A stretch of DNA of 44,062 bases from Treponema sp. GTDB lineage: Bacteria > Spirochaetota > Spirochaetia > Treponematales > Treponemataceae. Every line of letters starts with the position of its first letter. Positions within the stretch are counted from its first letter, which is position 1. A program made the translations under genes and the position numbers. Of this stretch, positions 17,365-41,954 are shown piece by piece. The notes beneath the pieces are model-generated. The model ran no database searches. It was not told the origin of the DNA and was given only the letters and a program-made list of their open reading frames with translations. The stretch spans positions 1 to 44,062 of the forward strand of contig JAILIC010000046.1 of assembly GCA_024695475.1 (NCBI GenBank), written 5' to 3'.

Positions 17365-17406
17365 AGACCAGCGGTTTGTATATAACTGACCGCTGGTCTT
17401 TTTTTT
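17365..17406 (+). terminator. Intrinsic terminator of the ABC ATPase gene
   Basis: A perfect 11-bp stem AGACCAGCGGT (17365-17375) / ACCGCTGGTCT (17389-17399) is followed by a run of T. It has a U-tract only in the plus direction. The chemosensory operon on the other strand ends at 17405, overlapping the T-run, and would read through the hairpin without a U-tract. Confidence 0.93.
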
Positions 17407-19153
17407 AGTTACTCTCTTTGCGGATATTTTCGAGCTTTGCTGCAGCCATTTGTATTTGGTCAGTTGTTTCGGTGATTGTTTTTGTTGACTCTGCAAAGTT
17501 ATCGATTGTGGTACTGATTTGTTTTAGTGTCACGAGAATCTGATTAAACGAAGCTGTCTGTTCTTCGATCATGGTTGCAATTTCACTGGTTTTGACAGAG
17601 GTATCAACGGCTGAGTCTTTTATAGCGTTAAAGTTTTCCATAAGGGTATTAGCAGACTCTGCTTCCTTTTTGATAAATTGAGTCTCCTGCTCTGATGAAG
17701 AGATTAACTCATGTGAAGCCTGCTGGATATCAGTAATTGAGTTTTCAATGTCTTGTATGCTGTTAATCGTGCTGTTTGCCAGGCGACGGATTTCGGCAGC
17801 AACGATATGAAAGTTTTTACCATCGTCACCAGCAGTTACGGCTTCCAGTTCTGCATTAAAGGCAATGATACGAGTTTGATCAGCGATATCTTTTATAATG
17901 CTGATGATATCCCCGATTTTGTTTATCTGGCTGCCAAGATTACGGATACCTTCGATTATTGACTCATTGGAGGCATTGATTTCGTCCATGTGGTTGAGGT
18001 TTTGCTCGAGTATATCAAAACTGTTGTTTACATCCTGCTTGGTAATTTCTGTTCCTTTGGATACGGTAGTAATCATGTTCTCGATATTTTTGGCAAAGGC
18101 GTTTGAGTCTTCCATGGTAGTTACGATTTCTTTGACATCGGAACTTTGCTCAATTGAAGCGGCTGAAAGTTCGTTTGCTACTACTGACAAATCCTGTGTG
18201 GTCTTTCGAGCATCACCACTGATAAATAATGATTGGGCAATGATGTCTTGAAAGTGGATAAGTATCTCATTGAGGAGGTATACGTTATACTGCATCTGAT
18301 CCGAAATTGATGTATCCATCTGTTGGTTGATCTCGTCAGAAGTAAGTATGCCTGTGATAGTATTTTGTAACTTTACATTGCTGCTGATGATGTGATTGAA
18401 AAAATAATAGGCAAGGGCAGTACATAATCCCAAGTTCATTATGGCAAGGGTAATGATACGTGCAATTTGAAATTGTGCTTTTGGCCAGATGTTATTGAGT
18501 TGACTGTATCCTTGCATGAGTATCAACAGTGTCAGTACATTTGCAAAAATAACCGGTATGACGAGGAAGAGTATACATTTTACGCCTGTAGCCAGACCAA
18601 ATGCACGTTTTGAAAATACATACTCTTTATTTATCCCCTGTGCTACCAGAATTTCGCCATAGTGGCTGCAGATACGTTCCGAATAGACTCCACCCAAAAT
18701 GGCTGCATTGTAACTGCCAAAAATACAGGCAACGAAGGCCATAAAGCTTGTACGGCTATCTATATGAATTTGTGGTATATATTGGTAGCTGGCACAAAGA
18801 ATAACGGAAAATGCTGAAAAGAAGGCAAATGTTTCGAGCATTTTTTTTACCGGATAGTCCATGATATCCTGAAAGAGTTTAGTACGTTCAATATCGTCTA
18901 AAATTCCGTTTTCTTCCCATGTACTGATGCGTTTGCTTAATGGTCGGGTCATCAGCATGTTTGCAATAGGTGCAAGTGTAAATTCTGCAACAATAATGAT
19001 ACCGATAAGTACGGCAATAGCAGCAGGAATTTGTTCTCTGTGTAGTGCAATAAAGAAATTTGCAAAAAAGAAAACGATAAATGCAGAGATACAATTAGGT
19101 ATGACTCCTGACTTAAAAATTTGTTTATAAAAAGGGAGATTGCTGTCTTTCAT
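17405..19153 (-). CDS. Six-TM methyl-accepting chemotaxis-like receptor D (fourth of four)
   Basis: A 582-residue protein. Six hydrophobic segments lie within residues about 15-260, with only short loops between them. The conserved cytoplasmic-loop motif I-E-R-T-K-L-F is present (near residue 88), and I-C-S-H-Y-G-E...G-L-A-T-G-V precedes TM5. No HAMP is seen. Residues about 290-580 are an MCP signalling coiled coil with tip A-D-Q-T-R-I-I-A-F-N-A-E-L-E-A. It is last gene of the chemosensory operon, 5 nt after receptor C. The start has GGAGG 13 nt upstream. Of the four receptors it retains the canonical A-G-x-x-G-K-N-F turn best. Its signal is presumably membrane-embedded or redox/lipid-borne; this is inference. 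Confidence 0.9.
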   Translation of the reverse strand: MKDSNLPFYKQIFKSGVIPNCISAFIVFFFANFFIALHREQIPAAIAVLIGIIIVAEFTLAPIANMLMTRPLSKRISTWEENGILDDIERTKLFQDIMDYPVKKMLETFAFFSAFSVILCASYQYIPQIHIDSRTSFMAFVACIFGSYNAAILGGVYSERICSHYGEILVAQGINKEYVFSKRAFGLATGVKCILFLVIPVIFANVLTLLILMQGYSQLNNIWPKAQFQIARIITLAIMNLGLCTALAYYFFNHIISSNVKLQNTITGILTSDEINQQMDTSISDQMQYNVYLLNEILIHFQDIIAQSLFISGDARKTTQDLSVVANELSAASIEQSSDVKEIVTTMEDSNAFAKNIENMITTVSKGTEITKQDVNNSFDILEQNLNHMDEINASNESIIEGIRNLGSQINKIGDIISIIKDIADQTRIIAFNAELEAVTAGDDGKNFHIVAAEIRRLANSTINSIQDIENSITDIQQASHELISSSEQETQFIKKEAESANTLMENFNAIKDSAVDTSVKTSEIATMIEEQTASFNQILVTLKQISTTIDNFAESTKTITETTDQIQMAAAKLENIRKESN

Positions 19154-19158
19154 AGGTA

Positions 19159-20910
19159 CTATTTATCCTCCTCATTTGTATTGCTGATTGATCCCAGTTG
19201 TTGAGCTGTTATGGTAAGTGCGTCGGCAGTATCGATAATCGCTTTTGTTGAGTCAGAAAAATTTTGAACGCTGATGCCGATTTGTTGCAGTGTTTTTACG
19301 ATTTGCTCAAATGATGCCGTCTGCTGGGTAATCATTTCTTTTATTTCTGTTGAAGTAGAGGCATTAACATCAGCAGATGTGTGAATGTTAAAAAATGCTT
19401 TTTCCAGTTGATGGGCAAGCTCTGAACCATGATGTATCTGCTCGGTATTGCTTTGGGAGGCAATTAACAGGGAATCAGCAGATTTTTGGATATCATTGAT
19501 CTTGTTTTTGATTTCATTTGTACTTTCCATTGTACTGTTTGCCAAACGTCGAATTTCACTTGCAACATTGCGAAAGTTTTTACGGCTTTTGAGTACGCGC
19601 GCAGTTTCAAGTTCCGCATTAAAGGCAATGATTTTTGTTTGATCTGCAACACTATTGATGATGGATATAATATTCTTTATTCCATTGATTTTATTTGTGA
19701 GGTCCTTGATACCAGTAATAGTCGTTTCATTTGATTTTTCTATCTCGATCATGCGATTGAGGTTTTCCTGCAGGATTTGAGAGCCTGTCTGTACATTTTC
19801 AGCAGTGGCGTCAGCGAGAGATGCAACTTCAATGATACGTGCTTCAATCTCATGGGAGAGTCGGCTGGCATCTTCCATTGTTGAAACAATTTCATTTGTG
19901 GCGGTTGATTGCTCCAATGCAGTTGTTTTAGTTTCATTTGCAACGGCAATAAGATTTTGTGATGTCTCTTTTATGTTATTACCGATTTTTTCAGTCCGAG
20001 AAATAATGCCCTGAAAAAATGAAATTAACAGGTTTGACAGGTAGTGGTTATATGCAATTTCGTTTTCGATGCTTGTTTCAAGGAATGTAGCTTTTGTTAC
20101 ATTTTTACCTTGCATGTTTTGTAAGACTTCTGTCATTTTTGCATTATTGCGGTGAATTCGATGATAAAAAAGAAGAATTAATGCTGTCTGGATACATATA
20201 TTCATGATAATGGTACCAGTCATGCGCTTTATTTGTAAAAAACTTCGTGGCCACATAGCCGGTGTATCCATAGGAGAATAACCTGTATACAAGACGAGAC
20301 AACAGATGATACCTGCCGCTGCTACTGGAATGATGACATATAAGAATAATTGTGTTTGTAATCTAACGCCAAAGTATTTTTTGTGCATGACGTAGCTTGT
20401 GTCGAGGCCTGTAGCAACGATTTTACTCGCGTATTCGGTGCAAATCTTGTTACAATAATTGTATGCATACAATGCGGCAAAGTATGATCCATAAAAACAC
20501 TCGACCAGTGACAGTATATTAATAGCGAGGGCGACTTTTAAATAAAAGTAATATATTAAAAACAGGGTAAATGAACCGAGTACAAAATATATTGCAGTCA
20601 TGACGGCGCAAATAAAGGGCATGTGCATTACTTGTTCAAGTAGTTGTGTCCGCTCGCGTTTATCAAGCATGCCGCTTTCAAAATCTGATATTTTAGATGA
20701 AACATCTTTATACACAAAATGATCTATGACGGGAGCAATCATAAATTGGGCAACGAGAATGATGCACAGTACATATTTAAATGCTGGCATGGTGATGTAA
20801 GATGCTAACCGTATGGAAAGCACTGAATACAGGAATATAATGAGACCTGAGGCAATATCAGGCAAAAAACTGTGTAGAATTACTCTTTTTTCAAATGTCA
20901 TTGTTTTCAT
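19159..20910 (-). CDS. Six-TM methyl-accepting chemotaxis-like receptor C
   Basis: A 583-residue paralogue of D with the same layout: six TM segments in residues 10-260, loop motif R-E-R-T-Q-L-L, I-C-T-E-Y-A-S before TM5, no HAMP and no periplasmic domain. The signalling tip is A-D-Q-T-K-I-I-A-F-N-A-E-L-E-T-A-R, after which the usual A-G-E-x-G turn is replaced by V-L-K-S-R-K-N-F. The start ATG overlaps the stop of receptor B (ATGA at 20910-20907) with AAGGTG upstream, so translation is coupled. Confidence 0.9.
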   Translation of the reverse strand: MKTMTFEKRVILHSFLPDIASGLIIFLYSVLSIRLASYITMPAFKYVLCIILVAQFMIAPVIDHFVYKDVSSKISDFESGMLDKRERTQLLEQVMHMPFICAVMTAIYFVLGSFTLFLIYYFYLKVALAINILSLVECFYGSYFAALYAYNYCNKICTEYASKIVATGLDTSYVMHKKYFGVRLQTQLFLYVIIPVAAAGIICCLVLYTGYSPMDTPAMWPRSFLQIKRMTGTIIMNICIQTALILLFYHRIHRNNAKMTEVLQNMQGKNVTKATFLETSIENEIAYNHYLSNLLISFFQGIISRTEKIGNNIKETSQNLIAVANETKTTALEQSTATNEIVSTMEDASRLSHEIEARIIEVASLADATAENVQTGSQILQENLNRMIEIEKSNETTITGIKDLTNKINGIKNIISIINSVADQTKIIAFNAELETARVLKSRKNFRNVASEIRRLANSTMESTNEIKNKINDIQKSADSLLIASQSNTEQIHHGSELAHQLEKAFFNIHTSADVNASTSTEIKEMITQQTASFEQIVKTLQQIGISVQNFSDSTKAIIDTADALTITAQQLGSISNTNEEDK

Positions 20911-22637
20911 TGTTTGTCACCTTCATTTGGAGATTGAGTTGTTATAACACCAGTGCTTATGGTCTGAATTTTTTCAGAGTACTGCTGCATTTTAAGTACG
21001 GAGTCAGATATTTCAAGTGTTCCGTTGTTGATACTGACAATACTGTTATGTATCTGCTCAAGTGTTTTTAGAATTTGAGCAAATGATGTTGTCTGTTCGA
21101 TAATGTGCTGTTTAATTTGCTTTGCATTGACAAGTGTACGTTGGGCACTTGTTTGGATGGTGGTAAAGCGTTTTTCCAGTTGTGCTGACAGGTCGTCACC
21201 TTCCTGTATTTTTTCCATGCAGGAGTGTCCTGTGGTGATAAGAACATCACTGGCTGTAAGAATATCTTCGATTTGTTCTTTGATTTGCTTTGTCATTGTC
21301 ATGGTACTATTTGCCAATTGACGGATTTCTTTACTGACGTTATAAAAATCTTCGATATCGTTTTGGATATTGCCTGCTTCAATTTCGGCATTGAATGCGA
21401 TTATTTTAGTTTGGTCGGCTACAGTATCGATAAGGTTAATGATATCTTTTACACTTAGGATCTTGTTATAGAGATTCTGGATACCGATGATAGTCATCTT
21501 ATTGAATGTAATGATATCTTTCATGATCGATAGATTTGCATGTATCTGCTCTACGTTATTGTCGATATCTGTTACGGTTTTTTCGGCAACATGGACAACT
21601 TCGTCTGATTTTAATGAGATGGTATTTGATAGTTCTTTAGTGGCCTCCATCGATTTGACAACAGCAGCTATGCTGTCTGACTGTGTCTGTGCGGTTGCAT
21701 TTGTTTGCTGTGCAATCGATGACAGTTCCAATGATGAGGTGTTTATCTCGCAACTAATATTGTTGTTTTTTTGAAGCATTGTATGAAAAAGACTGATGAC
21801 ATGATTTATCAAAAACTGTGTATAGGCAAGTTCTGATGATAGATCGGTAGGAATAAACGCTGCATTTGCAATATCATGAGATGTTATACGCAACATAGAT
21901 GCCTTCATGTCTGTTGCGTATCTGTGAATCTTTTTAAAGAATACAGTAATGAGCAGTATGAGTACTGCACAATTGATTATCGATATAATCGTTATCTGGA
22001 GCAGATGGTTTGGATTAAATATGCAAAACAAAAAGATGAGTGTAAAAATACAGATAATCGGCAATATGATGTAGATGACAAACAAATGGGTGAGTGAAAT
22101 ACCAAAGAGATGTTTGAGTATGATACGCTGCTGTGATATTCCTTGTGATACGACATCCTTTGTTATTTTTGAACAAATATTTTGTGAGCTGTAAAAGGCT
22201 GCAATATACGCAAAGTACGAAGTAACACACCCGATTAACAGAAAGATGAGTGATTCTTTTATTTCGACATTCATAAAGAGTATAAAGCACAGTACAAGCA
22301 TACCGGTACAGAAAGTAAACATGCAGTATATTTCAGTTGCCTTTACATAGGGAAAATTGGTTAACTGCATAAAGAGGTCAGTCCTTTGTTTTTCTGTTGT
22401 CTCCTGTGTTTGCCAGTACAGCAGTTTATTTGATAACGAAAAGGTGACGAGTTTGTTAAGAATAGGAGAAAAAATACACAAGCCAATGCCGATGATGCTG
22501 GCTGCACTGATATAGGTTTGCAGCAGTTTTTCTATGGGCAGATGTATAAATGTCATGTCATAAAAAAAGATGATGATCGATGCCACAAAATTGATGACGA
22601 GGTTCTTTTTGAGTACCGTTTTTTCAAAGTTTTGCAT
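20907..22637 (-). CDS. Six-TM methyl-accepting chemotaxis-like receptor B
   Basis: A 576-residue paralogue. The start at 22637 was chosen over 22688 because GGAGG lies 6 nt ahead and it brings TM1 to the same position as in the other three. It overlaps the stop of receptor A by 14 nt. Six TM segments are followed by a coiled coil with tip A-D-Q-T-K-I-I-A-F-N-A-E-I-E-A-G-N-I-Q, the most diverged after the conserved core, lacking the Arg and Gly of the canonical hairpin. The C-terminus is N-E-G-D-K-Q with no CheR-tethering pentapeptide. Confidence 0.9.
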   Translation of the reverse strand: MQNFEKTVLKKNLVINFVASIIIFFYDMTFIHLPIEKLLQTYISAASIIGIGLCIFSPILNKLVTFSLSNKLLYWQTQETTEKQRTDLFMQLTNFPYVKATEIYCMFTFCTGMLVLCFILFMNVEIKESLIFLLIGCVTSYFAYIAAFYSSQNICSKITKDVVSQGISQQRIILKHLFGISLTHLFVIYIILPIICIFTLIFLFCIFNPNHLLQITIISIINCAVLILLITVFFKKIHRYATDMKASMLRITSHDIANAAFIPTDLSSELAYTQFLINHVISLFHTMLQKNNNISCEINTSSLELSSIAQQTNATAQTQSDSIAAVVKSMEATKELSNTISLKSDEVVHVAEKTVTDIDNNVEQIHANLSIMKDIITFNKMTIIGIQNLYNKILSVKDIINLIDTVADQTKIIAFNAEIEAGNIQNDIEDFYNVSKEIRQLANSTMTMTKQIKEQIEDILTASDVLITTGHSCMEKIQEGDDLSAQLEKRFTTIQTSAQRTLVNAKQIKQHIIEQTTSFAQILKTLEQIHNSIVSINNGTLEISDSVLKMQQYSEKIQTISTGVITTQSPNEGDKQ

Positions 22638-24387
22638 GAGAATCCTCCGTTTGTGCAGATCCCCAAAGCAATAGCTGTGTTGCTGCAATCTGTAGATTAT
22701 CCGCGGTGTTTGTAATTAATTGGGTTGATGCAAGAAATTGCTCAAAACCTGCGCTTACCTGCTGTAATGTGTCGTTAATCTGTTTAAAAGTCTGTTCCTG
22801 TGAGTCGGTGATAGATTTAACGTTTTCGGCTGTTTCGACAGTGATATCACTGGTTGTGTAGAGATTTGAAAAGGTTTGTTCCAGCTCGCTAAAGAATTTG
22901 CTTATTTCGCGTATTTTTTGAGTACCGCTTTCGCTGGTGACAATAAGATTATCAGATGTTTCTTGTATGTCTTTAATTCGTTTTTTTATATCATGCGTTG
23001 ATGTGGTAATAGTAGCGGCGAGCCGACGTATTTCGTTTGCTATGACATGAAAATTTTCGGCATTATCTTCGCCTGCGCTGTCAGCTTTTAATTCTGCATT
23101 AAAGGCAATGATCTTGGTACGCTCTGCAAGGGAATCAATGGTATTGATTATTTCCCACACTTTGTCAACCTTACCGCTCAGCGTTTTTATGCCAGTGATG
23201 GTGGCGAGGTTTTCGTTTGATATTTGTAGCATTTGGTTTTCGCTGATGTCATGTTTTAGCAAGAAAAAACCTTCGTTTAGATTGCTTCTGGTTGCTTTAG
23301 TCGTATGTTCTACATCACTGGTGGTTTCAGATATGTTGTTTAGTAATTTTTGTACGTTATACATAGTTGAAAGGCACTCGTCGACACTTGCAGATTGTGA
23401 GATCGATGTATCGGAAGTGGTGTTTGCGGTAATCGAAAGTTGTTTGATGGCTTCTTGCAGATTTGTTGTTGAGTTATTTGTTTGTTGCACTATTGATTGT
23501 AATTGAGACAACATGTTATTGATGAGTGCTACGTTATAATTAAGCTCATTGTTGACATCTGTTGGCAAATAGGTAAAGTCAGTTGTTTTTTTCAACAGGG
23601 TATTTTCTAGTACGTTATTGATATTGATGGTTGTCCGGAATATCTGCTGAAAAACAATAATGGTAAATACAGCTATGATTGTTATATTAGTAATGATAAA
23701 CAGAGGCGTAATATGTTTTTCTCTGATAATAACGAGCAGTGCAAGAAGATGTTCTAATACGATGGGTATAAGAATATACATTGTGGCACGAGCAGTCATG
23801 CTCAGACCAAATGTCTGCTTTTTATTAAATGCTTCTTGATCCAATCCTTGTTGTACGAGTTGTTTTGCATAGTGAGAGCATACTTGCTCGGTGAATGTAT
23901 AGGCAACGAGAGCTTCTATAAAGCTGCCGAAAAACGATGTCGCAGTCCAGTAAGGAATAAGTGTAAGCGGTAGATGAAAACAAAAGCATAAAAAACAGAT
24001 GGTAGCAAGCAAAGTGAGTGTGGATATTACAAGTACTTCTAAAAAGATTTTTTTAGGGCAACTTGCCAGCTTTTCAAGTAATTGAGTTCTCTCTAATGGG
24101 GTACCTGGACTGCTTTTTTCTCGTTTTAAACTGTCGGTTATGTCCATTATCAGTGTGTGATTGATTTTTGGACCGATAAGATTTGGAAGAATAAGGGTTA
24201 CAACAACGAGAATGATAATTGTTTTAGGAATATCAATACAGTCGATATATGGGGCGATACCTGAAAAAAGAAAATTATAGGTGATGATACCGACTGCTGA
24301 AAATGTATTGAGCAGTCGTCCTGTACGCATGAATCGAGTTTTAAAACTATCGTTTAGAATAAGTTTGTTCAAATGCTTTCTTTTCAT
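22624..24387 (-). CDS. Six-TM methyl-accepting chemotaxis-like receptor A
   Basis: A 587-residue paralogue, first receptor after the cyclase gene (7-nt gap). Six TM segments lie at about 28-50, 55-75, 115-138, 140-165, 205-228 and 235-258, with loop motif L-E-R-T-Q-L-L and V-C-S-H-Y-A-K before TM5. The tip reads A-E-R-T-K-I-I-A-F-N-A-E-L-K-A, so Gln of the usual A-x-Q-T is Arg, and the turn A-G-E-D-N-A-E-N-F is one residue longer than in receptors B-D. No HAMP is seen. The SD is weak, so translation is probably coupled to the cyclase gene. Confidence 0.9.
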   Translation of the reverse strand: MKRKHLNKLILNDSFKTRFMRTGRLLNTFSAVGIITYNFLFSGIAPYIDCIDIPKTIIILVVVTLILPNLIGPKINHTLIMDITDSLKREKSSPGTPLERTQLLEKLASCPKKIFLEVLVISTLTLLATICFLCFCFHLPLTLIPYWTATSFFGSFIEALVAYTFTEQVCSHYAKQLVQQGLDQEAFNKKQTFGLSMTARATMYILIPIVLEHLLALLVIIREKHITPLFIITNITIIAVFTIIVFQQIFRTTININNVLENTLLKKTTDFTYLPTDVNNELNYNVALINNMLSQLQSIVQQTNNSTTNLQEAIKQLSITANTTSDTSISQSASVDECLSTMYNVQKLLNNISETTSDVEHTTKATRSNLNEGFFLLKHDISENQMLQISNENLATITGIKTLSGKVDKVWEIINTIDSLAERTKIIAFNAELKADSAGEDNAENFHVIANEIRRLAATITTSTHDIKKRIKDIQETSDNLIVTSESGTQKIREISKFFSELEQTFSNLYTTSDITVETAENVKSITDSQEQTFKQINDTLQQVSAGFEQFLASTQLITNTADNLQIAATQLLLWGSAQTEDSHAKL

Positions 24388-24394
24388 ATCTATG

Positions 24395-26221
24395 CTACTT
24401 TGTGGTTAGTGTAAAAGCTCCATCCCAGTCTACTGGTTTGTTTTTATTAAATTCCATACAACGTGTGTATAATACCTTTGCAGACTTGTTGTCTGGATAC
24501 TCTTGCAATGCCTTGTCAAAATACGAGGCGGCATTGTCAAAGTTGCCTATTTCGTATTGGTTTAATCCCTTTTTGTATGCTTGGGTAAATGCTGACGTAT
24601 ACGTATTGTTTTCATCTGTTAATTCATAAATTTTTACCGGAATGGATTTGCCTTTTACTTTTACGGTATCGAGTTGTCGGATAATGTACTCTCCACGGAG
24701 ATCTTGCACCACCGAATCGGTAATAATAATGTGTGAGTCATAGAGTTTCGTCAAACTCTCAATACGTGAAGAAAGGTTTACGTCATCACCAATAACGGTA
24801 TATTCTTTTTTTTCTGCGCTGCCGATAGCTCCGACAATAGGCTTTCCGTAATGTATGCCAATACCCGTTTTAAAGGAGTAGCCTTTGGGCATGACTAACA
24901 TACTGGTATCAAGTGTTTTGACTGCCTGCATCATTTCCAGAGCTGCTTTTGCTGCACGATTGCCATTGTCTTCAAAACTCTCGGCAGCTCCAAATAATGC
25001 CATGATGGCATCTCCCATAAACTTGTCGATGGTGCCGCCATGTTTTTTGATAATAGAGCCCATGATAGAAAAATAATAGTTGAGAAAGGTAACGACACTT
25101 TCTGGAGGATTTATTTCGCTTAATGGAGTAAAATCTCTGATGTCAGTAATGAGAACGGCAACCTGGCGTTTCTCGCCCATGGTGGCATTAATGAGCTTGT
25201 TGCCTTCGATAAAGTTATCTATAACCTTGTCCGGTAAAAAACGGCTAAAGGCTTGCCGTATTTTTTTCTCGGAAGCCATTTTTTTGTTAAACTCAATTAC
25301 TTGTGCAACGACTGGTTCATAAATCTCGATAAAAAAATCGAGACGTTCAAGCGTGCGGCTGTTAAATGCATCTTCTGTAGCATTTGCAAGGTGGAGTGTA
25401 AAAATGCCGTTTCGATCGCGGGGAAATACCTCGTAGCTTTTTAATTTTATCTCTTCAGTGTTTTTAGTAGGCACGTCCAATTCAATAGTATTGGTATTTT
25501 GCCATAGATATTCTTTTCTATTAGGAACCTTTTCTTTAAAATCAGATTGGCATATATGCTTAAAGTCTTCATAGTCCTTTTTTGTTATTGTCTTGATATG
25601 TTCAAAATATCCTGACAGAGAGTCGTCATTTACTAAGATGCCGAGTGCATCGTAATTAAAAACACCGGCAACGGTTGATGCCATATACTGCAATAAATCG
25701 CTGATATCAAAAGTACTAGATGCAGCTTTATAGGCATTTTGCATTTGATACAGAGTAAACAGCTCGTAATCATAGGTTTTATTGATAAAAGTTATGAGCT
25801 GTGTCAAATCAGGCTCTGGTCTGACGGTTGCTTTGCGCTTTGGTATATTTTGGCTATACGAGATATATACTTCGTCGGCTTTTGTGGCTAGCTGATCATC
25901 TATGATGATAAAGCCATTTGATTTGGAGTTTGATGCCCAAAAGCGGTGTACACTTGTTTCTTCATTGCCACAGACTATGACACAGATGTCGCTAAACTCA
26001 TGAGCGTTTTTTATGGTACGGGTCAGGCTGTAGGCGTCAATAGCTGGTAATTCATAATATACAAGTAAGAGGTCTGGGCTTTCGGTATATACTTTTTTGA
26101 GAGCTTCGATTCCGTCTTCGGCAAGTACTGTTGCGTATCCTAATTTTTGCATTTGTTTTGCCAGTATGGTTCTCATCGTTGGAGAATCAAAGGCAATAAG
26201 AACCTTTTTTTTACTCACCAA
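24395..26221 (-). CDS. Class III adenylate cyclase with N-terminal pseudo-receiver
   Basis: A 608-residue cytoplasmic protein. Residues 1-125 have a receiver fold but the phospho-acceptor Asp is Tyr55 (P-D-L-L-L-V-Y-Y-E-L-P), the acid pair is Phe11-Asp12, and the conserved Lys region reads I-I-I-D-D. Residues about 155-315 look GAF-like. Residues about 345-540 are a class III cyclase with metal Asp360 and Asp404, adenine-selecting Lys400 and Thr475 (class IIIb pattern), and Asn482/Arg486 for transition-state binding, so cAMP production is expected. Residues 545-608 resemble a TPR and end in the spirochaete cyclase-type W-D-G-A-F-x-L-T-T-K. It overlaps cheA by 11 nt and precedes four receptors, making it the likely output of the chemosensory operon. 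Confidence 0.92.
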   Translation of the reverse strand: MVSKKKVLIAFDSPTMRTILAKQMQKLGYATVLAEDGIEALKKVYTESPDLLLVYYELPAIDAYSLTRTIKNAHEFSDICVIVCGNEETSVHRFWASNSKSNGFIIIDDQLATKADEVYISYSQNIPKRKATVRPEPDLTQLITFINKTYDYELFTLYQMQNAYKAASSTFDISDLLQYMASTVAGVFNYDALGILVNDDSLSGYFEHIKTITKKDYEDFKHICQSDFKEKVPNRKEYLWQNTNTIELDVPTKNTEEIKLKSYEVFPRDRNGIFTLHLANATEDAFNSRTLERLDFFIEIYEPVVAQVIEFNKKMASEKKIRQAFSRFLPDKVIDNFIEGNKLINATMGEKRQVAVLITDIRDFTPLSEINPPESVVTFLNYYFSIMGSIIKKHGGTIDKFMGDAIMALFGAAESFEDNGNRAAKAALEMMQAVKTLDTSMLVMPKGYSFKTGIGIHYGKPIVGAIGSAEKKEYTVIGDDVNLSSRIESLTKLYDSHIIITDSVVQDLRGEYIIRQLDTVKVKGKSIPVKIYELTDENNTYTSAFTQAYKKGLNQYEIGNFDNAASYFDKALQEYPDNKSAKVLYTRCMEFNKNKPVDWDGAFTLTTK

Positions 26222-28280
26222 GGAACTCCTTTACCGCTTGTATAAGATTGCCACGTTGAAACTCTGATTTGACTATAAAAGCCTGTGCCCCTGCTTCTAT
26301 AAACTGGTGTTTTGCTTCGGGATCATAGGCACCTGATACGATAATGACAGGTGTGTTTGCGTAATCATCCATGTGACGGATATTACTTAAGAGTGTCAAC
26401 CCATCCATACGGGGCATATTGATATCGGTGACGATTGCATCAGCATGTATGGTACGCAATTGTTCTATGGCGTCAATACCATCAACTGCAGTATGTACAA
26501 TATAGCCGTCAGTTTCAAAGATTGTTTGTTCGATTTGACGGGTGGTTGTAGAGTCGTCAACAATAAGAATAGTATAGGTCTTTTTTTGTGTTTTTGTTTT
26601 GTATTTTTTAATGTCATAGGCAACGAGACCTTTGAGTCGTTGCATAATATCAGGAATATTAAGAATGGGGATAATGGCATAGTTTTCGTCATATACAACG
26701 CCTTGTATGGCCTTCATCCCAGTTAAGAGTCGTGGTAATGGATTTACGACAACGTTTTCGTACTGCTCCAAGGAGTCAACAACGATAGCCATTTGTGTTT
26801 CAAGGTATTCTACGACGATAATGGCCGGAACAGTGTTGCTTGTAGTGGTGTTGATATTTAAAAGTGATGATAGGTAATATACTGGTATGAGCTGCTCATG
26901 TAATCGTATATAGGTTTGAGTTTGGATATGTACCAAAGGATATGATTCAGGATCTATTATTTCCTGAATATAATGTGACGGTATCATAAACTTGAGGGAA
27001 CTTGCATGTACAAAAAGCCCCTCTTGTGTTGCCAAAGACAACGGTATGACGAGTTCAAAGGTAGTACCTTCGTTTTGTTTGGAGGTAAGGTGTATTTTAC
27101 CCTTTATTTTTTCCATGTTGTTACGTACGACATCAAGCCCTATTCCTCGACCAGATAATGCTGTTGTTGTCGAATTGGTTGAAAAACCTGAAGAAAAAAT
27201 GTATTGTTGCAGTTCTCTGTTGCTCATATCAGAGATTTCTTTTTTTTCATTGGGGTGTAATTCAATTGCCTTTTGTCGTACTTTTTCGTATTGAATGCCC
27301 CGTCCATCATCATGTATGACAATCTTAAGGTGGTTAGCTATTTGATAGGTATGGATGGCTATGGTTCCTTGTTCACTTTTTCCTTTTTCTTTTCTTTCTT
27401 GTGGTAATTCGATACCATGATCAAGACTGTTGCGGACAAGATGCATGAGTATATCGACTAGTTTTTCCAGAATGATTTTATCAAGCATGGAGTTTGTTTC
27501 TGGGATATCAATATAGACCTTTTTTTGCAGTTTGATGGCTTCACTTTCAATTTCTTTTCTCAGTGGAGCAAGCACCATGTTTAATGGCAGCATGCGCAAA
27601 TCAAGAATTTGATGTTGCGTATCAAAGATTGTCTTTTCGATGAGAATAAGGTCTTCTTTTAGTTGCTTGGGTATTTCATGATACTGTTTTTCATAAAGCT
27701 CCAGTTCATGTTTAAAGCGAAACTGCCTGATGATGAGATTATCCAGAGATTTGACAATTTCATTGATACGTTCGATATCGATACGTATTGATGTTATGTT
27801 TTCGAGATCGGACGCCTCTTGGATACTATTTTCGATGTCTTGCTCTATTTGCTCGCCTTTGTTTGCTTGCTCAAGTGCATCTACGGTAAAGAAAAAACCT
27901 GATGCTGCCTGTTTATAGGCATCGATAAACAGAGTAATATCCAGCGTATCATCTTGTGTATTTTTTACTTTTGTTAATGCACGAAGTATACAATCTGATG
28001 TTGCAAAGGTGAGCTGTACGATATGGTCGGTAAGTTCAAAGCGTTCTTCTTTTATTCCTTTAAAAACATCTTCAAGTCCATGTGAAAGTGCTTCGATTGT
28101 TGCAAACCCCATCATTCGGGCTGTTCCTTTTATCGTATGGAGATGCCGTAAAAGGTCATTGAGGACTGTCTTATCAGAAGTATTATTTTTTAAAACAATG
28201 ATGGCTTGATTTATTGCCGAAATATGTTCATTTGTTTCGGCTATAAATTCTGTACTAAAGGAATCTTTTGAGCTTGGCAT
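26211..28280 (-). CDS. cheA: CheA-type histidine kinase with C-terminal receiver (CheA-REC hybrid)
   Basis: A 689-residue protein. The Hpt domain (1-~120) has phospho-acceptor His48 in H-T-I-K-G-T. There is no P2 (CheY-binding) domain, only a short acidic linker. A long P3 dimerisation helix pair spans about 163-230. The P4 ATPase has N-box Asn284/His288, G1 D-D-G-R-G-I and G2 G-R-G-I-G-L-D. The CheW-like P5 spans about 435-560. A complete receiver (565-689) has Asp619 in T-D-I-N-M-P and Lys of I-V-K-S. The kinase probably passes phosphate to its own receiver. The layout resembles hybrid CheAs of alternative-function pathways such as Wsp or Frz. It overlaps the cyclase gene. Confidence 0.93.
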   Translation of the reverse strand: MPSSKDSFSTEFIAETNEHISAINQAIIVLKNNTSDKTVLNDLLRHLHTIKGTARMMGFATIEALSHGLEDVFKGIKEERFELTDHIVQLTFATSDCILRALTKVKNTQDDTLDITLFIDAYKQAASGFFFTVDALEQANKGEQIEQDIENSIQEASDLENITSIRIDIERINEIVKSLDNLIIRQFRFKHELELYEKQYHEIPKQLKEDLILIEKTIFDTQHQILDLRMLPLNMVLAPLRKEIESEAIKLQKKVYIDIPETNSMLDKIILEKLVDILMHLVRNSLDHGIELPQERKEKGKSEQGTIAIHTYQIANHLKIVIHDDGRGIQYEKVRQKAIELHPNEKKEISDMSNRELQQYIFSSGFSTNSTTTALSGRGIGLDVVRNNMEKIKGKIHLTSKQNEGTTFELVIPLSLATQEGLFVHASSLKFMIPSHYIQEIIDPESYPLVHIQTQTYIRLHEQLIPVYYLSSLLNINTTTSNTVPAIIVVEYLETQMAIVVDSLEQYENVVVNPLPRLLTGMKAIQGVVYDENYAIIPILNIPDIMQRLKGLVAYDIKKYKTKTQKKTYTILIVDDSTTTRQIEQTIFETDGYIVHTAVDGIDAIEQLRTIHADAIVTDINMPRMDGLTLLSNIRHMDDYANTPVIIVSGAYDPEAKHQFIEAGAQAFIVKSEFQRGNLIQAVKEFLGE

Positions 28281-28303
28281 GCCGGCCTATCCTGTTATAT
28301 GTA

Positions 28304-29695
28304 TTACTTTTTATCGAGCGAGTCACATAATGTTAAAAAGTATTCTGGACTAAACTGCTCCATAATAAAATTATAACATGTTTCTTGATTTTGAATATAC
28401 TGTTTCAAATAATTTTTACAGGTTGAGATAAGTTTTTCTTTTTCTTTTGGCGATAGCAGTGATGGAGTGAGTGTCAGCTGTTGAAAATATCCAGGCCAAA
28501 AGAGTGGAACCGTATACGTTGCTTTTTGAAATAACTCATATGCTGTTGTTATATTGCCTTGTGCCTTTTTGACTAGTCCTAAAAAATAGTATTTAAACTC
28601 GGTGTTTTCAACACGGAATGGATATGCTTGTATAAGTGTTAATGCGTGTGGATAGTTTTTATACGTAATATCGTTTTGTATTTTTGCATATAATTGAGGA
28701 ATTGTATCAATCTGTTGTATTTGTGTGTTTTGTTGTATTTGATAGTTTTCTTCTTTTTTGTCTACTTTTTGCTGTCGAGTTATCAGTACATGCGATTTTG
28801 TTTGCGACTGGGGGAGTATCACTGGTTTATAATCACGTTTTACTGGTTTGAGTATGGAAGTTGATGAAGCTTTTTTTTCTGTATTATTAATTTTACGTAA
28901 AAAGTAGACGGTACCGACATGTTCTTTTACGAAAGGGAGGCTATCATCACAATCGATGCTTGCAATTTCGTTTATCGATAGAAACAGTAAGGCATTTGGT
29001 TTTAAGAAAGTTGCAATATGTCTGAGTAATCTGTTCCGTAAATCAGGCTCAAAATAAATAAACAGGTTACGTAAAAAAATGAGGTCAACGCCATCTGCTG
29101 GCAATGGTGGATTATTATTGATGAGTAAATTCATTAGGTTGTAGGTAAAATAATGAATGGAATTTTGTACATCTGGATACAATTTAAATTTGCGTTTTTC
29201 CCAACTTCCGTGTGCTTCTAATAGTGGCAAATACTTTTTGCCGTCAGAGCGGAATGACTTTATTCTAAAAAGACCTTCCTTTATAGAAGATAATACAACG
29301 GTATCAATATCGGAGGCATAGACAGTTACTTGCAATCCACAGCATTTTGCAGCTAAATACAGAGAAATAGGTTCTTCACCAGTAGAACAAGCAGCACTCC
29401 ATATAGAAATATGGTTTGCATTGGTCTTAAACTGAGGAAAAAACACTTTTGTCAGATAATCAAACTGCTGTTCTTCCCTAAAAAAATAGGTTTCATTTAT
29501 GGCTGCCTCATCGATTAGTGATGATAGTTCTATACTTGAGCTATTGAGAAAAGTATAATACTCATCAAGTGTCATGTGCAACTTTTCAAGATGTCTGTTG
29601 AGATAACTGGACATCGTTGTCTGTTGTGCATTTTTTATACTGATGCCGCAATGAGTTTCTATGATGTCAAATATATCCTGTTCTGTTACCGACAT
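28304..29695 (-). CDS. cheR: CheR methyltransferase with C-terminal TPR-like extension
   Basis: A 463-residue protein. Residues 1-275 form the CheR N-terminal helical and SAM-dependent methyltransferase domains, with N-E-T-Y-F-F-R-E (67-74), SAM loop S-A-A-C-S-T-G-E-E-P (100-109) and a F-L-R-N-L-F-I-Y-F motif. It methylates receptor glutamates. A polar Gln-rich linker (about 290-340) precedes about 110 residues with helical TPR-like character, as in CheR proteins of Wsp-like systems. The start codon follows the cheB stop by 2 nt with no clear SD, pointing to translational coupling. Confidence 0.92.
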   Translation of the reverse strand: MSVTEQDIFDIIETHCGISIKNAQQTTMSSYLNRHLEKLHMTLDEYYTFLNSSSIELSSLIDEAAINETYFFREEQQFDYLTKVFFPQFKTNANHISIWSAACSTGEEPISLYLAAKCCGLQVTVYASDIDTVVLSSIKEGLFRIKSFRSDGKKYLPLLEAHGSWEKRKFKLYPDVQNSIHYFTYNLMNLLINNNPPLPADGVDLIFLRNLFIYFEPDLRNRLLRHIATFLKPNALLFLSINEIASIDCDDSLPFVKEHVGTVYFLRKINNTEKKASSTSILKPVKRDYKPVILPQSQTKSHVLITRQQKVDKKEENYQIQQNTQIQQIDTIPQLYAKIQNDITYKNYPHALTLIQAYPFRVENTEFKYYFLGLVKKAQGNITTAYELFQKATYTVPLFWPGYFQQLTLTPSLLSPKEKEKLISTCKNYLKQYIQNQETCYNFIMEQFSPEYFLTLCDSLDKK

Positions 29696-29697
29696 GA

Positions 29698-30741
29698 TTA
29701 CTTGATATATTTATTAATGAATACTGGTATTTCTTGTAATGGTAAAACAGTTGATGCCCCTCCACATTCTATTGCAGCTCGAGGCATTCCAAATACAACG
29801 CAAGTTTTTTCGGACTCTGCAATGGTAAAGCCTCCATTATTTTTTATGCGTAGGCATCCTTCTGCTCCGTCTTTACCCATTCCAGTTAAAAGGACGGCAA
29901 AACACCGCTCTTTTAGACAGGGGGCTGCACTTATAAAAAGCTTATCGACTGCGGGACGTAAAAAGTGCATGGGTGGATCTTTATCCAACATCATGGTATA
30001 AGAACCTTTTTGAGTTGGAGTTGCCTTTATGGTTAAATGGCTGTTTGCTGGAGCTACATAGACATTCCCTTTTTGTGCTATTTGTCCATGCTGAGCAAGT
30101 TGTACGTTATGTCCTGTTGTGTCTTTGAGCCATTTTGCAAAGTAGACGTCAAATGAAGCATCTATATGTTGTGTGATAAGAATTGGCAATGGAAAGTTTG
30201 TCGGTAAGCCTTGCAATACTTTTTGTATGGCAATGGGGCCACCTGTTGAAGCACCAATGAGTAACAAATCATAGGCATTTACCGCAGGTTGTCTAGCAGC
30301 AGTGTTAGCAGTTGTTGTTTGTACGGACTTTAGAGGAACTGTCTTTTTAAGAGCTTGTCGCTGCTCAATTATCGAAGCAAGCCTGTTACAGAATTTTTTG
30401 AGTGTCTCGGTTGTCATGCTTGCAACATTTGGTTTTTGCACCATGTCCAGAGCCCCGGCCTGAATACATTTATAACTGTTTTGTATGGTATCTTCTGTAG
30501 TAAAAACGATGATAACAGGCTTTGACGTTGCCATGATCTGACGTGTTGCCTCAATGCCGTCCATGACTGGCATATTGATATCCATGATGATAAGATCGGG
30601 ACGATATAATTTATTAAGTTCAATGCCTTCTTGTCCGTTTTTTGCATGACCGACAATATGAAAGCGACCATCTATCTGCATTATTTGTTTTAGTACTGCA
30701 TACACAACTGCAGAGTCATCTACAATAAGAACATTTATCAT
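29698..30741 (-). CDS. cheB: CheB receptor methylesterase
   Basis: A 347-residue protein of standard CheB length. The receiver (1-~105) has acid pair Asp8-Asp9, acceptor Asp54 and the Lys of V-Q-K-P. The esterase domain (155-347) has a complete triad Ser165 (G-A-S-T-G-G-P), His192 (T-Q-H-I-D) and Asp291 (G-M-G-K-D-G). It demethylates or deamidates receptor glutamates when phosphorylated by CheA. Its start overlaps the upstream small gene by 4 nt (ATGA). Confidence 0.95.
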   Translation of the reverse strand: MINVLIVDDSAVVYAVLKQIMQIDGRFHIVGHAKNGQEGIELNKLYRPDLIIMDINMPVMDGIEATRQIMATSKPVIIVFTTEDTIQNSYKCIQAGALDMVQKPNVASMTTETLKKFCNRLASIIEQRQALKKTVPLKSVQTTTANTAARQPAVNAYDLLLIGASTGGPIAIQKVLQGLPTNFPLPILITQHIDASFDVYFAKWLKDTTGHNVQLAQHGQIAQKGNVYVAPANSHLTIKATPTQKGSYTMMLDKDPPMHFLRPAVDKLFISAAPCLKERCFAVLLTGMGKDGAEGCLRIKNNGGFTIAESEKTCVVFGMPRAAIECGGASTVLPLQEIPVFINKYIK

Positions 30742-31142
30742 ATAGGTTTTTCGCTCCCTTTTTTTACTAAGTATTGTATATCAAGTTCATATTGGAGTTT
30801 GTCATTTTCAAATCTAAATCCACAGATACCATGGCTGCGTAGTTTTTTGCCGATGATTCCCTCTATCGACTGTATAGAATGAAAAGAAAGTTGCTGAATT
30901 TGTGGTATGGCAGATGTTGTTATAAAAAAAGGGGTAGAGCCTTTTGTACGTAATATACATTTTGTCTGCGTATCGGGGGCAGTGATATTGCATGAAGCTG
31001 CAAAATCATCGAGGGAAATAGTCGTAAGATTACCTGTGACATCATCACCACTTTGAACATTACTTTCGGCAATGACTGTGTATGGTATGAGGATATCATT
31101 TTGATTGTAGGGCAATTTTATGTACCAGTTACTTTGTTTCAA
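30738..31142 (-). CDS. Small protein of the chemosensory operon, unknown (possible degenerate CheW-like domain)
   Basis: A 134-residue protein with no signal peptide or TM segment. No family was recognised with confidence. Its C-terminal half (I-L-R-T-K-G..., then I-Q-S-I-E-G-I-I-G-K-K-L...L-Q-Y-E-L-D-I-Q-Y-L-V) follows the rhythm of the second half of a CheW domain (I-x-G-x...L-D-x-x-x-L), which makes a diverged CheW-type adaptor plausible. It overlaps cheW by 14 nt and cheB by 4 nt, so it is certainly co-translated with the core signalling genes. Other options include a PilZ-like or pathway-specific inhibitor fold. Confidence 0.7.
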   Translation of the reverse strand: MKQSNWYIKLPYNQNDILIPYTVIAESNVQSGDDVTGNLTTISLDDFAASCNITAPDTQTKCILRTKGSTPFFITTSAIPQIQQLSFHSIQSIEGIIGKKLRSHGICGFRFENDKLQYELDIQYLVKKGSEKPI

Positions 31143-31599
31143 GATCTACCTGTACCTTTTCGAGTATTCCTTCGAGATTGATTATAGGTGCTGTAGTGTC
31201 ATTAAAAGCAATTGCACCGGTAAAGTTTTGTGTTTCTGATTGATTTGATAACGAAACTTCTGAAATATCTTCTTTTGCATGAAACTCCAGGATGTCGGTG
31301 ATTTTTAGTGCAACATTATTTACATTGTTGAGAATGAGAAAAAGAGAGTTTCGCGATTGCTGTGCAGTATCATGTTGTTCGCTATTTTGTGTATCCCCGC
31401 TAAGGTAGTGTGCAAAATCAAGAACCGCATATGGATTTCCATAATAGTTAAGTACACCGGTTATATATGGGGGAACAAAAGGAATGGGAAAAATCTTGCT
31501 GTTACGTATTATTTCTTGAATGGCAGATGATTCAATTGCGTAGGAATCAGTACCTGACTTAAAAACTAACCATGTTTTATGTGATGCTGTGTCACTCAT
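31129..31599 (-). CDS. cheW: CheW coupling protein
   Basis: A 156-residue single CheW domain. Y-A-I-E-S-S-A-I-Q-E-I-I followed by P-x-V-P-P-Y-I-T-G-V-L-N-Y-Y-G and A-V-L-D-F is the classic first half. It bridges receptors and CheA. A short Asn/Gln/His-rich insert is present near residues 68-82. It is first gene of the operon, with a TATAAT box only 6 nt from its ATG and no SD. Confidence 0.92.
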   Translation of the reverse strand: MSDTASHKTWLVFKSGTDSYAIESSAIQEIIRNSKIFPIPFVPPYITGVLNYYGNPYAVLDFAHYLSGDTQNSEQHDTAQQSRNSLFLILNNVNNVALKITDILEFHAKEDISEVSLSNQSETQNFTGAIAFNDTTAPIINLEGILEKVQVDLETK

Positions 31600-38619: not shown

Positions 38620-39699
38620 TTACTCTTGTATATATTTTTTGAGTGCTCTGACGATAAATCGTCCCCAAGGGGTCATGTCGGAATCTTCCCAGTCGCTGAG
38701 CTTGTTACACGTACTCAGAATGACACTATGAGACTCTGCTTTATTTGATAGTGACCACACGCACCATCCTATATTATTCGTTTTGAGATAATCAATAAAC
38801 TTTCGTGTTTCGTTAAAGTTAAGTCTGCTGTCGTGTGATGCAGTGATTTTTGTGTCATCAAGCTTGCCATACGAAATACCCCATTCTGTAACGAATATGG
38901 GAAGCTTTTTATCAAGTGCTTTTTTTAAGTCTCCTGGAGAAAACTCGTTTTGCTCTGAAATGTTAATGTAATGATGATAACTATACATAATGTTGGCATA
39001 AGGCAGTGGCTTTTTTAATGGCCCGCTTAAATCTCTACAGTAATCTGGGGTACCAACGATAATGACTGCTTTTGGACTGTTTTTTCTGATAATCGGTATG
39101 ATATATTCGGCATATTCATAGACATCTTTCCAGGATGTACGTCCATTTGGCTCATTACAGATTTCATATAATATATTTTTACAGTTGGGATACCTGCTGG
39201 TAATCTCTGTAAAAAAATCTATTGCTTTATTTTTATGCTTAAGCGGATTTTTGTCTCTCATAACATGCCAGTCAACAATGACATACATGTCTTGTGAGAT
39301 GGCATTTTCAACTGCCATGTACAGATAGTTTTTACTCTCTGTCTCGTTGTAGATGTATCCCCCTTCCTGTGTTAGATACATTGCTGCTCTAAATACGTTT
39401 GCACCATATGACTTTGTGGTTTTGAGTGCATTTGCATTACAATAGCGTGGATACCAAACGAGACCGTGACTGCTAAAACCTCTGAGCTGTACCGTTTCGC
39501 CACTTTCACTTTTAAGAAAGCGTCCTTCTACTGAAAGTTGTCCATATTGCTGTACCGGGCTTGATACAACTTGATTAACAGGTGCCTGTGCAAAAAGAGG
39601 CGCATTTGCTGCTGTACATAATGTGATACACACTGCTATGAGCGATGCGTACTGATGGCAGTACGTAGTAAACTTATCGACGGCGTTTTTTGTTGTCAT
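38620..39699 (-). CDS. GH5 endoglucanase (cellulase)
   Basis: A 359-residue secreted enzyme with signal peptide (cleavage after A-P-L-F-A). The GH5 barrel has acid/base Glu183 in C-N-E-P and nucleophile Glu272 in V-T-E-W-G, plus R-A-A-M-Y, D-W-H and Y-S-Y-H-H-Y substrate-site motifs. It hydrolyses beta-1,4-glucan. It overlaps bcsA by 26 nt. Bacterial cellulose operons normally include such a hydrolase (BcsZ, GH8); here a GH5 takes that place. It could also serve dietary cellulose breakdown, but the operon position favours a role in synthesis. Confidence 0.93.
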   Translation of the reverse strand: MTTKNAVDKFTTYCHQYASLIAVCITLCTAANAPLFAQAPVNQVVSSPVQQYGQLSVEGRFLKSESGETVQLRGFSSHGLVWYPRYCNANALKTTKSYGANVFRAAMYLTQEGGYIYNETESKNYLYMAVENAISQDMYVIVDWHVMRDKNPLKHKNKAIDFFTEITSRYPNCKNILYEICNEPNGRTSWKDVYEYAEYIIPIIRKNSPKAVIIVGTPDYCRDLSGPLKKPLPYANIMYSYHHYINISEQNEFSPGDLKKALDKKLPIFVTEWGISYGKLDDTKITASHDSRLNFNETRKFIDYLKTNNIGWCVWSLSNKAESHSVILSTCNKLSDWEDSDMTPWGRFIVRALKKYIQE

Positions 39700-41950
39700 A
39701 TGCTTCCCATTCCTTTACTTTTGCCAGAAATAATTTATTTGTTGAAAGTTGCTCCATGTTTTTGATTATGTAAATTCCTGGCCGTATATCTGTTTTTTCA
39801 CATAAAATATCAAAACCGCTTTGAGGATACAACACGAGTACATCTGGTAGCGACTTTTCGCTTACAGGAGCGAGTTTTATATATTTGAAGTTAAAGCCTT
39901 GAAGTTTTACTTCGGTTCCATCTTCGAGTATGGTTGTCTCCTTTATGAGAAGACGAGCTGTTTTTCGGTTAGTCTCAGTTTTATCACTGTTATGGAGTGC
40001 AAAATTGGAACTGATATCACTGACATAGCTTGATGATGCAAGTAAATGTTTTGGCAAGGTATGCTCGCGATCAAAAATGATTTGAAGATATTGTTTTTTA
40101 TTGAGCAGACTCATTTTATTAAGCTCAATACTGTACTTCCATGACTTGTCTTTTGTTTTTGTGACACTGGATATATGTCCGCTGATATGAGCTTCATACA
40201 TGCGATACGATAGGGTAAATGATATATTTGCCTCTTTGTCGTCGGGTAAGTAGACCGCATCATTTAAAATAAAGGCTAAGCCACCTTCTGAAACATCGAC
40301 AGTCCAGCCTTTGTATGTGTTATTGTTATAGGTGACTTCGATAGGAATATCAAATTGAAAGCGCTCTGATTTGCGTTCATTGGTGCGTCCATTGATAAAT
40401 AGGATTGCCATAACGAGGCTGTATGAGTTGATACAAAGCCAGTACAGGATGATGAGTGCCCCGAGTGCACGATACAGTATGAGTTCCCTGAGTGTTATGG
40501 CCAACGAAAAGAGACAGCATACTAACAGTACCACATGTGGTAGTACAAGAAAACGATCATCTGGTTCGCCACCACTTTGTGATTTACTGGTGATACTAAA
40601 TTTCTTTTTTTGTATCCCTAAAATCTCAGCCCAGATGGGAATGACAAGATAAGGAAACATGATGGTATCGATAATATTGCTCCAACGAGCATCTCGGTAG
40701 CCTCCTGCGATAAGCTTGAGCAGACGTGAATAGAGTACATATGATGGCAACCAGATAAGCAGGAGTGGCTCTAGTCCTGCGACGACAATAGGTATATGAA
40801 ATAGCACAAATACTAATGGTGACATGATAAAGATAAGTCGTCGAGAAAAACTTTCCCAGTAAAGGCGACAGGCAAAATACGACAGTTTTTGAGCAAAAGT
40901 AAGATTTTTATTTCTGAATAGATGTATGCGCCTTAATGAATAGATGCAACCTCGTGCCCATCGCTCGCGTTGCTTTATGAGGCTGCGGAATGTCATTGGA
41001 GCAAGTCCCTTGGCAACTAATTTGCTTATGGCATAGCACTTATATCCTAATGCTTCGATACGTATGCCGGTCTCAAAGTCTTCGGTGATAGTACCTGTGG
41101 CAATACCGCCGACGCGCTCCAGTGCTTCTCGTGAAATGAGCGTATTGGAACCGGCGTATAATACTGCATTGTCTCTGTTTTTTTCGATGTTAATATGACG
41201 AAAAAAGTAATCCTGCTCATTTGGCACGGAGTTTTCACTGTAAAGGTTATACTGGAACAAGTCTGGATTATAGAATGACTGTGGTGTCTGAATAAATCCT
41301 ACTTTTTCATTTGGATCAATTTCATCTTTCTCTTTAGGAATCCAATTGCCATTACTATCTTTTTTTACTTTTGGCAAAAAGAAAAACGGCACCGTTTCAA
41401 GTAAAAACTCGCTATTGGGAATCATGTCTGCATCAAAGGTGGCAACTAATGGTGCAAAAGTTTTTGACAGTGCATTATTCAAATTGCCAGCCTTTGCAAG
41501 CTTATTATTTTTTAATCCGAAATAGCCGATTTTGAGTTCCTGTGCAAGTTTTTGTACTTCGGGTCGTGCGGCATCGTCACAGAGAAATACATGTACTTTG
41601 CTTTTATCTGGATAGCGCAACATAGTACAGGCATTTGCCGTTTTGAAGAGCAAATTGGTGTCTTCATTATGTGTTGCAATAAAAATGTCAACTTCAGGAT
41701 ACCAGCTGTTTGGGATTTCAGGAAGTTCTGGCTGAAAGATCTTTTTCATCATAATGACTTGTACCAATACCTCAAAGGCAGATGAAATCTCTGCTGTAAA
41801 GAGAAGCAATCCACAGATACAAGCTACCCAGCCATGATCAGCAGGACGAGGAATGGTAAAGAAGAGACGCCACACATAGTATATAGCAAGAAAAAAATAG
41901 GTGACTACTGTGGCAAGTTTTACGATGATAATATGGAGTAGTTCTTTCAT
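39674..41950 (-). CDS. bcsA: Cellulose synthase catalytic subunit with PilZ domain
   Basis: A 758-residue membrane GT2 enzyme. Two N-terminal TM segments are followed by the catalytic domain with D-D (125-126), D-A-D (173-175), T-E-D (289-291) and Q-R-E-R-W (327-331, the Q-x-x-R-W-type motif), then about six TM helices. The PilZ domain has R-x-x-x-R at 526-530 and D-x-S-x-x-G at 552-557, both needed for c-di-GMP binding. It polymerises UDP-glucose into beta-1,4-glucan and extrudes it. No BcsB, BcsC or BcsQ is visible in the window. A C-terminal ~130-residue extension beyond PilZ is unassigned. Confidence 0.92.
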   Translation of the reverse strand: MKELLHIIIVKLATVVTYFFLAIYYVWRLFFTIPRPADHGWVACICGLLLFTAEISSAFEVLVQVIMMKKIFQPELPEIPNSWYPEVDIFIATHNEDTNLLFKTANACTMLRYPDKSKVHVFLCDDAARPEVQKLAQELKIGYFGLKNNKLAKAGNLNNALSKTFAPLVATFDADMIPNSEFLLETVPFFFLPKVKKDSNGNWIPKEKDEIDPNEKVGFIQTPQSFYNPDLFQYNLYSENSVPNEQDYFFRHINIEKNRDNAVLYAGSNTLISREALERVGGIATGTITEDFETGIRIEALGYKCYAISKLVAKGLAPMTFRSLIKQRERWARGCIYSLRRIHLFRNKNLTFAQKLSYFACRLYWESFSRRLIFIMSPLVFVLFHIPIVVAGLEPLLLIWLPSYVLYSRLLKLIAGGYRDARWSNIIDTIMFPYLVIPIWAEILGIQKKKFSITSKSQSGGEPDDRFLVLPHVVLLVCCLFSLAITLRELILYRALGALIILYWLCINSYSLVMAILFINGRTNERKSERFQFDIPIEVTYNNNTYKGWTVDVSEGGLAFILNDAVYLPDDKEANISFTLSYRMYEAHISGHISSVTKTKDKSWKYSIELNKMSLLNKKQYLQIIFDREHTLPKHLLASSSYVSDISSNFALHNSDKTETNRKTARLLIKETTILEDGTEVKLQGFNFKYIKLAPVSEKSLPDVLVLYPQSGFDILCEKTDIRPGIYIIKNMEQLSTNKLFLAKVKEWEAYDNKKRRR

Positions 41951-41954
41951 TGCG

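Follow-up and report, generated by a model that had tools for sequence, protein, structure and literature searches.

How could a chemosensory operon control a cyclase that is encoded among its own genes, when the receiver domain of this cyclase has lost the residues of phosphorylation? The question is raised by an operon in a contig of 44,062 nucleotides from a Treponema sp. (JAILIC010000046.1; the whole stretch is here called the window), which belongs to the 3.17-Mb genome, in 172 contigs, of a Treponema relative of gut or rumen type, with rumen and other Treponema MAGs as its nearest named relatives. Ten ORFs, which together span 31599 to 17405 and are all encoded on the minus strand, follow each other in the order cheW, orf2, cheB, cheR, cheA-REC, cyclase and four receptors, and their junctions, counted from the receptor D end, are 5, -4, -65, 7, -11, 23, 2, -4 and -14 nt, i.e., gaps of at most 23 nt or overlaps. 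The overlap of 65 nt between receptors B and A shrinks to 14 nt with an internal ATG at 22637, which from the sequence may be the start of receptor B. Terminator-like and promoter-like matches within the operon do not occur with a frequency above that in shuffled sequences. A single-strand operon of ten genes had been described in an earlier note on this DNA, and coordinates, gaps and Pfam domains all agree with that description.

The operon begins with cheW (31129..31599, Pfam CheW 4.6e-16) and the 134-aa orf2 (30738..31142). They are followed by cheB (29698..30741), where Pfam recognizes REC and methylesterase domains, with intact REC and catalytic motifs, by cheR (28304..29695, Pfam CheR 3.3e-28), which carries a C-terminal extension, and by cheA-REC (26211..28280), with Hpt (H48), P3, HATPase, CheW-like and C-terminal REC domains. 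Next comes the adenylate-type cyclase (24395..26221), and then the receptors. The presence of receptor, CheW and a CheA with Hpt, HATPase and CheW-like domains identifies a chemosensory system of the CheA type, and its gene context, judged from sequence, is like that of the alternative cellular function (ACF) clusters. Pilus and flagellar genes are absent from the operon and the window neighbours scanned and, as the earlier note had it, the other window proteins that were scanned include no CheY, CheD, CheC or flagellar protein. Its reading goes in the right direction but is incomplete as to mechanism; supported is the part that makes the operon a dedicated one with an adenylate-type cyclase as its sole encoded output, since the junction of cheA and cyclase is conserved and no substrate or catalytic residue has been lost. 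Separate che clusters without an operon-type cyclase are found on contigs C115 and C124 of the same genome. Elsewhere in the window lie a PilZ-domain glycosyltransferase beside a GH5 cellulase-family gene and a CotH gene (38620-43574), and a GGDEF-EAL protein (3074-4798).

The pairing of cheA and cyclase is no local accident. Searches of the genome with CheW and the cyclase found a paralogous operon on contig C157, with receptor, CheW, a 161-aa ORF, CheB, CheR, CheA-REC, cyclase and receptor in the gene order of the window; this second full operon and the degenerate N-terminal REC of the cyclase are the two features that went unnoted at first reading. In the family, a protein search gave relatives of the cyclase in 54 of 145 genomes, nearly all of them full-length, and searches at the order and phylum levels gave further full-length relatives. 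In 40/40 fetched family loci the cyclase gene is the next one 3' of cheA in the same orientation, and in most cases the two genes overlap slightly, and in 20/20 fetched loci from outgroup Spirochaetota a single cyclase or a tandem pair comes directly after cheA, with CheR, CheB, CheW and receptors alongside wherever the contig is long enough. The CheA-cyclase pair is also carried by two more Treponema/Spirochaetaceae MAGs, which we take from their isolate names to be of termite-gut origin. A single scan of genome contigs gave mainly generic cyclases. One family locus (L086) has neither cheB nor cheR between cheW and cheA. A cheA-cyclase cluster in an alphaproteobacterial MAG (L099:865-9882) contains CheW, CheB, a separate receiver, a CheA that lacks REC and a class III cyclase that has GAF/PAS and likewise lacks REC; it was rejected as the same system and is an analogue only.

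The cyclase, in which Pfam matches REC, class III cyclase and TPR-like repeats, consists of a pseudo-receiver (residues 1-125), a middle domain (about 150-320), a class III cyclase domain (350-538) and a TPR-like C terminus. In class III cyclases, specificity for ATP follows a rule of Lys and Thr residues. The catalytic and substrate residues here are D360, K400, D404, T475, N482 and R486, which provide the metal Asp pair, the substrate Lys and Thr, and the transition-state Asn and Arg of an adenylate cyclase; D360, K400, D404, N482 and R486 are invariant in 44/44 family cyclases and position 475 is T or S. K471 was considered as substrate lysine and rejected, as K400 has the proper position and is invariant. 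By these residues the product is probably cAMP, for which the genome holds possible targets, since it encodes several cNMP-binding proteins, one of them with two such domains. A 412-aa protein at L236:1153-2391, where two cNMP-binding domain matches fall, is a possible cAMP effector. In the AlphaFold model of the cyclase (mean pLDDT 77), the catalytic domain aligns with Pseudomonas aeruginosa CyaB at a Z of 23.1 and an rmsd of 2.2 over 182 aligned residues, a top match tied with other cyclases; the bicarbonate-responsive CyaC is also among the closest structures, and the structural alignments concern almost exclusively residues 350-538. The middle domain is probably GAF-like, a label drawn from the secondary structure in the model and from a single weak Pfam match among 30. 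Two outgroup operons have tandem cyclases (L226:8812-12236 and L227:8364-11739), in which one copy has His in place of the first metal Asp and keeps Asn and Arg, and the other keeps the metal residues and has lost Asn and Arg; such complementary losses in sequence are as expected of an obligate heterodimer.

In the receiver of the window cyclase, the set D/D/D/T/K is replaced by F11/D12/Y55/G85/I107, so that the domain is no phosphorylatable response regulator. The full phosphorylation set occurs in 0/44 family cyclases, and the conserved Lys likewise in 0/44, while 18/24 outgroup Spirochaetota cyclases have the full acid pair, the phospho-Asp, the Thr/Ser and the Lys. Receiver residues have been lost independently in the outgroup loci L221, L226 and L227. 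The family of the window forms a clade in a midpoint-rooted tree (support 0.988), and the simplest history would be an ancestral phosphorylatable output with one loss at the base of the family; the best reading of the sequences is that a response regulator was the ancestor of the cyclase. From the inability of the pseudo-receiver to accept phosphate follows that control should go via protein contact, and the comparison suggests that the phosphate relay to the cyclase was lost among these relatives, with signalling by protein contact instead.

The CheA of the window looks like an intact kinase, with H48, N284 and the G boxes intact, and its C-terminal REC (571-683) retains D575/D576/D619/K671. 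The acid pocket, phospho-Asp and Lys of this REC are kept in 44/44 family CheAs. The earlier suggestion that the CheA receiver may be the end point for phosphate is compatible with the sequence, because this receiver is always intact, but it is incomplete in that it omits the pseudo-receiver of the cyclase and a group of CheAs without kinase. In this group, a clade of sister operons (support 0.998), the phospho-His is replaced by Ser or Cys in 11/11 CheAs, and the N, G1 and G2 boxes are missing from all of them; HATPase is recognized by Pfam in 0/11, and the REC and CheW-like domains in 11/11. Five genomes (88-97% complete) have no operon-type CheA besides the kinase-less one, and in their other CheA matches a C-terminal REC is not seen in frame. 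Pairs of kinase-less CheAs have a dN/dS of about 0.08 and the pseudo-receiver has 0.05-0.15, which means that both genes are maintained. An outgroup CheA (L227:11708-13849) has Gln aligned to the phospho-His and keeps its ATPase boxes, possibly an independent loss of phosphotransfer as far as the alignment goes.

Variation is seen also in the genes before cheA. The CheB receiver, intact in the window, is degenerate or missing in many family operons. The position of orf2 between cheW and cheB is kept in most family operons, and orf2 is absent from those with kinase-less CheA. It has no match in Pfam or NCBIfam; a profile comparison with CheW gives a weak collinear match (probability 19%), and an AlphaFold model from three sequences has a pLDDT of 37 and no usable fold. 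Its sequence is possibly that of a divergent CheW-like protein, which we do not claim because of the low profile probability and model confidence.

The four receptors, A (22624..24387), B (20907..22688), C (19159..20910) and D (17405..19153), all match Pfam MCPsignal and carry a tip signature, which in receptor C reads QTKIIAFNAELET in translation. The six transmembrane segments formerly ascribed to all of them are clear by hydropathy in B, C and D, whereas A has four segments above threshold. Operon tips follow QT[KR]IIAFNAE[LI]EA with small variations, the operon receptors of sisters and outgroup have close forms of it, and in the clade with kinase-less CheA the tips are almost invariant. 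Among the non-operon receptors sampled from the window's genome, the tip is mostly QTNLLA[ML]NAAIEA. These tip sequences suggest that the operon receptors form arrays apart from the chemotaxis arrays.

The operon and its conservation, the lost phosphorylation residues, the intact catalytic residues, the purifying selection and the receptor class are all read from sequence. The model that we find rather probable on these grounds is a self-contained array leading from receptor to cAMP, in which a former response-regulator cyclase is now controlled by contact, probably via CheA and its REC. In this scheme, receptors reserved for the pathway and distinct in the sequence of their hairpin tip would assemble an array with CheW and CheA-REC, CheR and CheB would provide its adaptation, and the cyclase would be its effector with cAMP as output. 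The ancestral cyclase REC would have been phosphorylated by CheA, a state retained in other Spirochaetota, while the present pseudo-receiver would most likely dock on CheA, probably on its C-terminal REC, and the docked state would switch the dimeric cyclase. The CheA-REC is favoured as docking site because it is the sole receiver intact in every operon. It is also the best contact candidate by analogy with the Pil-Chp system, where PilG, a CheY-like receiver protein, activates the cyclase CyaB (PMC10896506). The choice of docking partner is nevertheless a guess, and P1, P4, P5, CheW or the receptors are possible alternatives. What we infer is that the array assembles, what the cyclase docks on, in which direction control runs and that cAMP is the product. 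We put it somewhat short of an even chance that the array controls the cyclase without any phosphotransfer to it and that the kinase-less CheA of the relatives is a scaffold only, with signalling by contact alone. Against the contact model counts that the CheA kinase and the CheB receiver of the window look intact, from which follows that phosphate still flows somewhere.

The main rival to contact through the CheA-REC is contact in which phosphate plays no part: the cyclase would be a structural part of the array that senses the state of the receptors through CheA and CheW contacts, and the window CheA would be a kinase for CheB adaptation only. Operons with kinase-less CheA retain receptors, CheW and cyclase, their receptor tips are nearly invariant, and L086 does without cheB and cheR between cheW and cheA, all in favour of conformation alone. 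However, the phosphorylation residues of the CheA-REC are kept even where the kinase is gone, which suggests that phosphate matters somewhere, perhaps from another kinase, and we regard this rival as unlikely, albeit the one to reckon with. It is less probable still that control of the cyclase lies mainly with its middle (GAF-like) domain or with bicarbonate, and that co-expression is the only reason for its place in the operon. Such control would fit the separate middle domain that is predicted and the place of CyaC among the closest structures, but hardly the phylum-wide adjacency to cheA or the intact receivers of outgroup cyclases. That the system is dying, with the genes for pseudo-receiver and kinase-less CheA in decay, as the conserved residues lost in cyclase REC, CheB REC and CheA could indicate, is very improbable and already disfavoured by intact frames, catalytic residues present in 44/44 cyclases and dN/dS values far below 1.

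Chemosensory pathways that end in a nucleotide cyclase are already known. Wsp is a chemosensory array with a REC-nucleotide cyclase output; in its WspR a phosphorylated REC is joined to a GGDEF enzyme, whereas the present output joins a pseudo-REC to a class III cyclase. Pil-Chp of P. aeruginosa (ChpA, PilG, CyaB) also raises cAMP via a class III cyclase, and its CheA, ChpA, also bears a C-terminal REC (PMC10896506, PMC10782961). The comparison with Pil-Chp therefore stands as functional likeness and not as family membership: here the cyclase is encoded inside the operon and has its own (pseudo-)receiver, the receptors are dedicated, CheA has a single Hpt, and there is no separate PilG/PilH, i.e., no free receiver, and no pilus gene. 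ACF clusters, including those with CheR-TPR, share the non-flagellar CheW, CheB, CheR, CheA-REC and receptors, and REC-mononucleotidyl cyclase outputs have been listed among them (PMC3447774); the present operons differ by the fixed phylum-wide order of cheA and then cyclase, the lost phosphorylation residues of the output REC and the kinase-less CheAs. In the CheA survey of Berry et al. 2023, the core domains, including the ATPase, invariably co-occur (PMC10782961). The CheAs of the survey have P1, P3, P5 and C-terminal REC in common with those described here, but the kinase-less CheAs of the sister operons lack the ATPase. A literature search for this combination in an operon, with subscription papers mostly outside its reach, found no report. 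What is new, as read from the sequences, is that the output has lost its phosphorylation and that relatives have lost the kinase, two losses for which we found no earlier report.

Chemosensory arrays are usually taught as machines for control of a kinase. A series within one phylum, from phosphorylatable cyclase via pseudo-receiver to kinase-less CheA, would show that the conformation of an array can drive an enzyme directly, and the same spirochaete series would offer a testable model of kinase-independent output. The operon would also supply a named cAMP input for spirochaetes.
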